Shown here: positions 19,186 through 50,999 of the stretch, in pieces
How the letters are laid out: each line of letters starts with the position of its first letter
Numbering within the stretch: position 1 is the first letter of the stretch
NCBI GenBank assembly: GCA_022447825.1
Contig: JAKUTY010000005.1
Span: 1-64,000 of the forward strand
From: SAR202 cluster bacterium
GTDB lineage: Bacteria > Chloroflexota > Dehalococcoidia > Lucifugimonadales > UBA826
Length of the DNA: 64,000 nucleotides
Direction: 5' to 3'
Notes under the pieces: generated by a model
What the model saw: the letters and a program-made list of their open reading frames with translations, nothing else
Database searches by the model: none
Told to the model about the DNA's origin: nothing
Translations under genes and position numbers: made by a program

Positions 19186-20394
19186 TTATATATCTTCTAA
19201 TACAGCTATACCTGGCAGCTGTTTTCCTTCTAAAAATTCTAATGATGCTCCACCACCTGTTGAGATATGATTAATGTTATCTTGAACTTGAAAGTGTATG
19301 GATGCATCAACTGTTGATCCACCACCTATTATAGATTTAGCAGAACTTCTAGCAACTGATTTAGCAATTTGCTTGGTTCCGTTACTAAAACTTTCCCATT
19401 CATAAATTCCCATTGGTCCATTCCATAATATTGTTGAGCTATTTTCAATAATTGATTCGTAATGTGAGATTGTTTTGGGGCCTATATCTAATATCATTTC
19501 ATCTGTACAGATATCTTTGATCGAACAAGTGCGATATTGAGTATGCTCATTAAAATCTTTTCCTACAATGACGTCTTGAGGAAAACATAGATGATTTGAA
19601 TTGTCAATTTTATCTTTATAAATCATTTGTGAGCATAAATCGATTAAATCAGGCTCTACAATTGATTTGCCTACTTCAACATTCTGGCTGAGCAGAAACG
19701 TAGCAGCCATTCCTCCTCCTAAGAGAATATTATCCGATTTAGGTAGAATGTTTTCGATTACTTTGATTTTATCTGAAACTTTAGCACCACCTAAAATTGC
19801 AGTAAAAGGAGTTTTCGGGTTATCCGTAATACTTGATAATTCTTTAATTTCTTTTTCCAGTAATAATCCAGCAACAGACGGTACAAATTGAGGGATTCCT
19901 GATATGGATGCATGAGATCTATGGCTTGCACCAAAAGCATCATTTACATATACATCACATAAAGACGATAGAAGTCTAGAGAATTCAGTACTGTTTTCTT
20001 CTTCTTCTTTGTGAAACCTAAGGTTTTCAAGCATCAAAATATTATTTTGTGACATTTCTGAAATTCTATTAAAAATCGAAGAATCAATCGGGTATGTGAT
20101 AAATCCTACTTCTTTTTCTAAAATTCCAGACAATATTTGGCGAATTGGATCTAATGAAAGTTCTTTATGATATTCTCCTTTCGGCCTACCAAAATGAGAG
20201 CAAATTATGACTTTGCAGTTATTTTTTAATAAAAATTTTATTGTTGGAATTGTTGAAATTATCCTTGTTAAATCCAAAACCTCTCCACTAATGGGGTCAA
20301 ATGGTAAGTTGTAATCAACTCTAAGCAATACGGTTTTTTTTTCAAGATTAATATTTTGAATAGATTTTTTTGAAATAGTCATTATTTCAGGCAA
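19186..20394 (-). CDS. pgk: phosphoglycerate kinase
   Basis: VLLRVDYNLPFD, CSHFGRPKG, NDAFGASHRSHAS, AILGGAKVSDK, ILWNGPMGIYEWESF. Confidence 0.95.
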   Translation of the reverse strand: MPEIMTISKKSIQNINLEKKTVLLRVDYNLPFDPISGEVLDLTRIISTIPTIKFLLKNNCKVIICSHFGRPKGEYHKELSLDPIRQILSGILEKEVGFITYPIDSSIFNRISEMSQNNILMLENLRFHKEEEENSTEFSRLLSSLCDVYVNDAFGASHRSHASISGIPQFVPSVAGLLLEKEIKELSSITDNPKTPFTAILGGAKVSDKIKVIENILPKSDNILLGGGMAATFLLSQNVEVGKSIVEPDLIDLCSQMIYKDKIDNSNHLCFPQDVIVGKDFNEHTQYRTCSIKDICTDEMILDIGPKTISHYESIIENSSTILWNGPMGIYEWESFSNGTKQIAKSVARSSAKSIIGGGSTVDASIHFQVQDNINHISTGGGASLEFLEGKQLPGIAVLEDI

Positions 20395-21356
20395 TCCTGT
20401 AGTAATTTATTAAATGAATCCGATCCTGTGATTTCTTGGATTTCACTGTAAGCATCTTTTTGTAAAATTTTTATTAAATTTTCTGATTCTTCTTTTGTGC
20501 CTAAATCAGAGATTATTGTTCGAACTTTTTCTAAATCATTTTTCTCTAATACTCTTTTGAAATACACTTCTCCGATCAGCCTTTTTTGTTTAGGTTCACC
20601 TTTTTCTATATCTGACAAAACGTGGAACAATTTTTTTTTGTTGAGGAAATCTATTGGTTGGCTTTCGTCATCTGACCATAATTGGTTGATATCAGATTGA
20701 ATATTCATAGCGAGTCCTAATGACTGCCCAGCTGTAAAAAGATTTTGTTGTTTTTCAGGACTCATTTCGCTGAGACAAGCCCCAATTGCTAGGCATAAAC
20801 CGATGATAGAGCCTGATTTATCTTTAGACATAGAGATATATTCATCAGTAGATGAGTTTAGCCCTTCTTGCATCTCTAAGTCGCTAAATCGGCCTTCCAG
20901 AGACTTTAAACATGCAAAGTCTAGCCATGAGACACACTCAGAAGTGATGTGATTAGAAAAATTATTTGATGAGAGCTCTAACTAAGTAACTCTGGCAAGT
21001 GAATGCATTGCGTCTCCTGCATTAATTGCTTGAGCTGGTCCCCATACCCACCATACAGCATCGTTTGAACCGTTTTGGGGGTTCCCTGACTCAATATCGT
21101 CATGGATCTCAAGAAATGCATTAATCATTTCTAATGTTAATGCAGCAGGTAGAATTTTTTCATTTTTTAATTCAACACTGTAGCAAAAAGATTTTAGGAT
21201 TTGGGCGTACATACGCTTTTTTGTTACTGAGTTTTGTTCGTGAAGACCAAAATGGTAAGACATCATGTCGTAAAGGGGCAATTTTTTGGAGTCAAAGAAT
21301 GATTTGAGAGATTCATTGATTTCATTCTCAAAGTTTAACAATCTATCGTTAATCAA
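20382..21356 (-). CDS. polyprenyl synthetase family protein, interrupted by one in-frame TAG (20982-20984)
   Basis: First ORF contains EIHDDIESGNPQ (first Asp-rich region) and ends AGDAMHSLARVT*. Same frame then continues LELSSNNFSNHITSECVSWLDFACLKSLEGRFSDLE-MQEGLNSSTDEYISMSKDKSGSIIGLCLAIGA...LGLAMNIQSDINQLW with no further stop. Confidence 0.88.
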
Positions 21357-48323: not shown

Positions 48324-50156
48324 ATGAATCAAACTGATTTTAGCAATCAGCTTTCCAATACTCCTACCTCTCCAGGTGTTTATTTGATGTTTGGGGATGA
48401 TAGTGAAGTTTTGTATGTAGGTAAGGCTTTGAATCTAAAGAGTAGGTTGAGGTCATATTTTGTTCCCAAGCATGAAAATCCTAAGATAAGAATTTTAGTT
48501 GGTTTGATAAATTATTTTGAAGTAATTCTCACTGAATCCGAGCAGGAAGCTTTGATTTTGGAGTGTAATTTAATCAAAGAATATCAACCAAGATTTAATT
48601 CTAGATTGAAAGATGATAAAAGTTACCCCTTTATAAAAATTGATACACGTGAGAAATTCCCTCAGATTTATATCACTAGAAATGTTCAAAGAGGTGATGG
48701 AGCAAAATATTTTGGGCCATATGCTAGTGCCACAAGTGTAAGAAAAACGTTAGGTTTATTGAAAAAACTGTTCCCTTACAGGAGTTGTACTAAAAATATT
48801 ACTGGAACCGATCAGCGTGCATGTCTTGATTTCCATATTAATCGTTGTGTAGGGCCATGTATAGGCGCTGCTGATGAATTTCAATATAGAGAAGTTATCA
48901 ATCAAGTTGAAATGTTTTTACGCGGAGAAACTAAACAAATCTTGAATCAATTACATATAAAAATGTTAGATTTTGCCAAACAATTGGAATTTGAGAAAGC
49001 TTCTATAGTTAGAGATCAAATTAACGCTATAGATAGTGTTCAAGAAAAACAAAAAGTATTGACGACTGACAATGATGATATGGATGTCATTGCGTTAGAG
49101 CAAAAAAATCAAGAAGCTTGGGTAGAAGTTTTTTTTATTAGAAACGGTAAATTAATAGGGAGAGAGCATTATTTAATGAATGTTGCATTAAATGATGAAG
49201 TTTCTGATGTCTTATTGGCATTTTTGAAGCAATTTTATGAATCTACTTTAGATATACCTAAAACTATTTTGATTCAATGTGAGATTGACAATTTATATGA
49301 TGAAATTTCACTTTTTTTATCAAAAAAACGTGGTTCTAAAGTATCTCTTCTTACTCCAAAGCGTGGTACTAGAAAAAAAATGTTGAATATGGTTTCTCTG
49401 AATGCTGCACAGGGAATGAATAGATTAAGTTTGGAGAAAAGAAATCAAGTAGACCAAAATATAATTGCGCTTGATGAAATTCATGAAGCTTTGAGTTTGC
49501 CAAAATTACCCAAGCGCATTGAATGTTATGACATTTCAAATATTCAAGGTACAAATCCTGTAGGAAGTATGATTGTTTTTGAAGATGGTAAACCAAAAAA
49601 ATCTGATTACAGAAAATTTCAAATTAAAAAAGTACAAAATATTGATGACTATATGATGATGCGAGAAATGGTAGGTCGAAGAATTTCAAGATTAAATGAT
49701 GAAAAGTCTGCTGAGAATTGGAAGCGAATCCCGGATTTAGTTCTCATTGATGGGGGTAAGGGCCATTTGGCAGCTGTTTTGCAAGTGTTTCTTGAACAAG
49801 GGGTTTATTCTGAAATTCCATTAGCAAGTATCGCAAAACAAAAAGAGGAGATTTTTATTCCCCAAAACCCTGAATCTATCCAATTACAGCCTCATTCACA
49901 AGGGTTATATTTGATGCAAAGAATTAGAGATGAGGCACATAGGTTTGCGATAACTTATCATCGCCATAGAAGATCAAAAAATTCATTAAAATCTAAATTG
50001 GATTCTATCGAAGGAATTTGACCATCTAAAAGGAAAAAATTATTTAGTAAATTTGGCTCAGTTTCTAATATTGCTGCATCTAATGTTAGTGACTTAACGC
50101 AAATATCTGGTATCAATGAAAAGCTTGCGCAAAAAATTTTATACGAATTGAATTAG
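48324..50156 (+). CDS. uvrC: excinuclease ABC subunit C, interrupted by one in-frame TGA (50019-50021)
   Basis: PTSPGVYLMFGDDSEVLYVGKALNLKSRLRSYF...; after TGA the same frame gives PSKRKKLFSKFGSVSNIAASNVSDLTQISGINEKLAQKILYELN*, the UvrC C-terminal HhH region. Confidence 0.94.
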
Positions 50157-50181: not shown

Positions 50182-50625
50182 CTAGAAGTCTTTTGGTTCA
50201 ATCAAATCACTAAATTCATAATACATATCTGGAGAGCAAGTTATTATGGGTTTCGTTAATTTGTAGTAAGCATTTTGAACGAAAAAATTCTCAATGGTTT
50301 TTACGATGTCGATAGAGTTGTCAGTCTCAATGTTTTGAACATTCTCTCCAAAGTAGATATTTGATTCCCTGAAAAGGTTTCCTGAATTGAGTGCATTGGG
50401 TAGGTCGAGTTCTATGGGAGTTAAGTAATCGATCAAACTGGTGAAGGCAATTTCAGATTTTCTATCAAAATGCTGAGATCCCCAAATTAAGAATAAAGAA
50501 TATGTACTTATTCCTAATCTCACTTCTTGTTCTATCGCCCTAAATATCAAATTTTTAGCATGTGGGTCACCCGATTTGTATGCTAGCAAAACTGAGGAGT
50601 CGATTATGGCATCAATCTCATTCAA
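50182..50625 (-). CDS. PIN-domain-like putative toxin (VapC-like, possibly degenerate)
   Basis: DAIIDSSVLLAYKSGDPHAKNLIFRA; overlaps the upstream RHH-like gene. Confidence 0.6.
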   Translation of the reverse strand: MNEIDAIIDSSVLLAYKSGDPHAKNLIFRAIEQEVRLGISTYSLFLIWGSQHFDRKSEIAFTSLIDYLTPIELDLPNALNSGNLFRESNIYFGENVQNIETDNSIDIVKTIENFFVQNAYYKLTKPIITCSPDMYYEFSDLIEPKDF

Positions 50626-50923
50626 AGAAGCCTTCCTTTGCTATCTGTTTTTTCTCTGATTCTGATAGTGAAATAGGTGCTCCTACAGGTCTTTCTGCTT
50701 GCATTAGGAGGTATTCATCTTTTTGCCAAATATTTTTGGGTAATTCGTCTGTTTCTTTGGGATTGATACTGGGTTGTTTGAGGTATTGCGCTAGAGCTTC
50801 TTCAAGGATTTCTCTAATTGATAATCGTTCTTGAGCAGATTTAGATTTTAATGCTAAGTATAAAGGCTCACCTATTTTTGCAAATAATTGCCTCGTTGGT
50901 TCGTTAGAATTATTTCTTGCCAT
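50618..50923 (-). CDS. putative antitoxin (ribbon-helix-helix-like)
   Basis: RQLFAKIGEPLYLALKSKSAQERLSIREILEEALAQYL; 8-nt overlap with the PIN gene. Confidence 0.55.
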   Translation of the reverse strand: MARNNSNEPTRQLFAKIGEPLYLALKSKSAQERLSIREILEEALAQYLKQPSINPKETDELPKNIWQKDEYLLMQAERPVGAPISLSESEKKQIAKEGFFE

Positions 50924-50999
50924 AGTATGATACCTTTTGTTCATAGATTTACTCTCATATTAATGGGTAAATATATTGATATCAAGTTAGGAAAATATT

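Follow-up and report, generated by a model that had tools for sequence, protein, structure and literature searches.

The window analysed here comprises 64,000 nucleotides (positions 1 to 64,000 of contig JAKUTY010000005.1) of a SAR202 cluster bacterium. The genome that holds it, G000, is a 1.38-Mb draft in 53 contigs with an estimated completeness of 97.85% and an estimated contamination of 3.31%. It contains a single copy of uvrC, and uvrB is intact. The uvrC open reading frame stops at position 50021 and the same frame continues beyond this stop to a TAG (Table 1); the coordinates given for this stretch in the first-pass annotation (50019-50156) are exact. When the TGA is read through, the frame (48324-50156) encodes 610 amino acids, in which Pfam identifies a GIY-YIG domain, an UVR motif, two UvrC RNase H domains and HHH_5. 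This full UvrC domain set confirms that the gene is uvrC, and the length of 610 residues, which had been called normal, agrees with that of the relatives, as does the order of the domains. Two overlapping small genes on the minus strand (50182-50625 and 50618-50944) are convergent with uvrC and show a toxin-antitoxin-like layout; this gene pair gave no Pfam match at E 0.001.

The product that ends at the TGA retains the GIY-YIG nuclease, the UVR motif and the RNase H-like nuclease, each above the Pfam cut-off, and the HHH matches alone are missing in comparison with the 610-aa reading. The (HhH)2 DNA-binding domain is encoded in frame past the TGA and is missing from the product if the TGA terminates, just as the first-pass annotation had stated for a truncated protein. 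Its further statement that the tail domain is intact is borne out as well: the 44-residue tail alone matches HHH_5 above the cut-off (E 1.1e-9) and contains no further lesion. The C-terminal UvrC structures 3c65, 2nrt, 8b0q and 1kft from the PDB align across the TGA site. On sequence grounds, a homologous stop-free tail in the same frame as uvrC far exceeds what chance would produce. The second glycine of the G-phi-G hairpin, i.e. the residue replaced here, has been proposed to contact DNA, and the HhH domain of UvrC is required for 5' incision (both reviewed in PMC7835731).

Alignment with the uvrC genes of relatives supports the claim that the TGA sits at a conserved glycine and differs from a GGA codon by one base. 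Each of the 28 relatives in the alignment carries Gly at the site, and the tail is conserved. The UvrC protein of the sister genome G001, which belongs to the same genus, is 90% identical, lacks an interior stop and has GGA at the site, which points to one G-to-T change; the uvrC products of most other family members are 60-62% identical. The TGA itself is private to G000: 250 genomes of the order were searched, and among the uvrC matches listed, which leave out the weakest ones, G000 alone has an interior stop. No other genome of the species came to light, and IMG/VR yielded no other copy of the TGA site. The dN/dS ratio of the tail, which had been suggested as a check, is indeed low (0.12 against G001, compared with 0.07 for the body of the gene and 0.07 for the 45 codons before the stop), but it reflects the history before the change and therefore says nothing on whether readthrough, error or mutation is at work. 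The lack of any further lesion in the tail implies that the change is either very young or not real. A further genome of the genus, G002 (SAR202 AG-426-M11), was dropped as a second witness since it has no usable uvrC tail. In this genome the uvrC frame continues into an inverted lgt (L036:1830-1870) at a common GAAATTC, which results in a false 777-aa fusion and has the appearance of a chimera produced by whole-genome amplification of a single cell.

For a genome-wide view of interior stops, 831 kb of G000 were compared with 1,071 kb of G001, covering 615 orthologous genes and 189,027 aligned codons. Only stops more than 15 residues from the start and more than 5 from the end of the protein were counted. 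Thirteen interior stops were left in G000; seven of these interrupt a long, family-supported protein and were judged genuine on this basis, and six were set aside as lying in start regions or in unsupported short ORFs. The genuine stops comprise three TGA, three TAA and one TAG (Table 1). The reciprocal comparison flagged six stops in G001; as each of them fell close to a start or within a short unsupported ORF, none was accepted as genuine. A codon-score scan for interrupted genes returned mostly shadow ORFs, and the ortholog comparison was used instead.

Table 1. The uvrC frame of the window and the interior stops of G000 judged genuine by comparison with the sister genome G001.
Feature	Position	Strand	Description
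uvrC ORF as it stands	48324..50021	+	565 aa, ends at TGA; GIY-YIG, UVR and UvrC RNase H domains
In-frame TGA of uvrC, codon 566	50019..50021	+	GGA>TGA vs G001; replaces second Gly of G-phi-G hairpin
Intact UvrC HhH stretch after TGA, 44 codons	50022..50153	+	Pfam HHH_5; 7/7 conserved columns kept
TAG, final stop of uvrC	50154..50156	+	aligned TAG in uvrC of sister species G001
Cyclophilin-type isomerase	L190:6074	+	AGA>TGA vs G001
HdrB-like protein	L188:12178	-	GAA>TAA vs G001
Collagen-like repeat protein	L093:16492	-	Gly>TGA vs G001
acVLRF1-type release factor/peptidyl-tRNA hydrolase	L193:19595 (G000:C51)	-	TTA>TAA vs G001
ileS, isoleucyl-tRNA synthetase	L201:7226-7228 (G000:C17)		TCA>TAA vs G001
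Polyprenyl synthetase	20382..21356, TAG at 20984-20982	-	TTG>TAG vs G001

The interrupted ileS deserves particular attention. It is the sole ileS of the assembly, and its TAA lies at codon 633 of 1,054. The gene is essential in bacteria and a true stop at this codon should be lethal. Thus, this TAA can scarcely be the majority allele of a viable population, and the assembly contains at least one stop that is not of that kind. The polyprenyl synthetase has a 324-aa ortholog in G001 and is uninterrupted in G001, in G002 and in other family members. At its TAG several neighbouring bases differ too (ACT TAG TTA versus ATA TTG CTA), and the contig may be locally misassembled at this position; the gene served as evidence on base quality. 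The comparison with G001 revealed no frameshift that could clearly be assigned to G000, and the pattern is therefore one of base substitutions. Since all three stop codons are affected, a single recoded codon is excluded as the common cause. The seven stops represent base changes dispersed over a draft assembly and carry no recoding signal. On the side of G001, one gene apparently falls into two parts through a frameshift close to its 3' end when set against G000 (L170:7229-8480 against L096:12899-14149).

Three causes had been put forward in the first-pass annotation for the uvrC TGA, namely recent mutation, consensus error and functional readthrough. Because the stop is private and the genome holds six more single nonsense codons, of all three kinds and in conserved genes, the former two are kept and readthrough has gained no support. 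We infer that the TGA is probably a wrong base, i.e. an assembly or sequencing error in the consensus, or a minor variant in a consensus of low depth; this explanation is favoured because similar lesions occur elsewhere in the assembly, including in its only ileS. Base errors in the consensus, possibly at low depth, would be the simplest common cause of all seven stops. The living population would then encode an ordinary 610-residue UvrC, in which the 3' cut would fall to the GIY-YIG domain and the 5' cut to the RNase H domain, while the HhH domain would hold the DNA. According to our calculation 5% of random substitutions create stops, and seven stops correspond to roughly 140 changes in 567 kb of compared coding sequence (about 2.5e-4 per base). 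A relative-rate test over 38,888 codons with G002 as outgroup counted 109 radical missense changes in G000 and 119 in G001, but has no power because only about 6 extra changes are expected in its sample. The stop-making bases are transversions in seven of seven cases, always to A or T. The probability of seeing no transition among seven is 0.37 at equal rates and 0.04 at a fourfold transition bias, so the pattern leans weakly to error. Even if the other stops are errors, the one in uvrC could be real. Alternatively, the sampled population may truly have acquired a nonsense mutation of recent date, which we regard as possible and yet clearly less probable than an error. It would leave a UvrC of 565 residues that keeps both nuclease domains, loses the HhH domain and is impaired in 5' incision; a repair gene that is weakened or broken would be segregating in the lineage until it is lost or reverts. 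In the consensus such a mutation is identical in appearance to an error. A lone GGA>TGA beside an intact tail is just what a young nonsense mutation is expected to look like, and the intact uvrB indicates that the rest of the repair pathway is retained. In-frame stops in bacterial genes are common and short-lived (Belinky et al. 2021, PMC7918605). An account by viable mutations does not fit the TAA in the single-copy ileS of the same assembly, however, and a second genome of the species that might share the allele was not found. The literature on uvrC nonsense alleles and on nonsense errors in metagenome-assembled genomes offered nothing useful.

Explanations that leave the TGA in place and have the ribosome pass it fare considerably worse. 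UGA is generally the leakiest stop codon. With functional readthrough, a fraction of the ribosomes would continue past the UGA and yield UvrC of full length, and termination efficiency would thereby tune the level of repair or the presence of the HhH domain. The intact and conserved tail would suit this scenario, and Romero Romero et al. (PMC11126739) measured high levels of readthrough in stressed E. coli cells. We nevertheless consider it unlikely. The stop is conserved in no relative, and a sense codon is present wherever the region is. Neither an unusual RNA structure (fold z -0.07) nor a credible Rfam match, including any SECIS element, was detected at or after the TGA. By the E. coli criteria of the same study, in which an upstream T and a low G content nearby disfavour readthrough, the context ATT-TGA-C is unfavourable. 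The residue inserted at TGA is almost always Trp in E. coli (PMC11126739), and so bulky a residue in place of the G-phi-G glycine would be expected to disrupt the hairpin that binds DNA. Moreover, TAA and TAG interrupt other genes of the same genome alike. Selenocysteine recoding was rejected, given the Gly in all relatives compared and the lack of a SECIS in Rfam or of a stable fold. That this organism decodes TGA as glycine or another residue, as in Gracilibacteria/SR1, is highly improbable. Two of the three interior TGAs do lie at glycines, but by calculation a share of about 0.22 of random mutations to TGA should hit Gly codons, and one of the two genes encodes a glycine-rich collagen repeat. 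TGA ends 53 of 319 long ORFs, and for 82 of 87 comparable G000 genes with a terminal TGA the G001 ortholog ends at the corresponding position, uvrC being among the other five. Release factor RF2 is also present (prfB above cut-off), and no UCA anticodon occurs among the 33 tRNA genes, a set that is incomplete and without tRNA-Trp and tRNA-Ile. It would be equally far-fetched to regard all seven stops as real and tolerated because termination at TGA, TAA and TAG alike is unusually leaky, with uvrC, ileS and the others made in full at a low level; acVLRF1, a ribosome-rescue/release-factor-like gene, is itself among the interrupted genes.

If the TGA were real, it would mean that a marine bacterium either is shedding the part of a core repair nuclease that binds DNA or obtains this part by readthrough. 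Caution is called for, as stray nonsense codons occur in about 1% of the comparable genes of this assembly. Any single in-frame stop in it needs read support before being given meaning. Most likely the TGA in uvrC stems from an error in the sequence or from a copy of the gene that is trivially broken, and does not represent a new way of reading genes.

Among known systems, the uvrC stop can be compared with the private nonsense changes and pseudogenes of draft genomes. As in these, a single-base stop is found in a single genome within a conserved frame, and several more such stops occur in the same assembly; uvrC here differs in having neither a second lesion nor a decaying tail. In Gracilibacteria/SR1 UGA is recoded to glycine. 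A UGA at a glycine position is shared with this system, whereas in G000 TGA terminates normally, RF2 is present and a UCA tRNA was not found among the 33 tRNA genes. The conserved in-frame stops with proposed readthrough described by Belinky et al. 2021 (PMC7918605) likewise precede sequence under selection, as the uvrC tail appears to be in comparison with G001; those stops were required to be shared between species, and the uvrC stop is unshared. With respect to UvrC of bacterial nucleotide excision repair, the domain set, order and length are the same when the TGA is read through, whereas the consensus frame as it stands is cut at codon 566, which removes most of the HhH domain.
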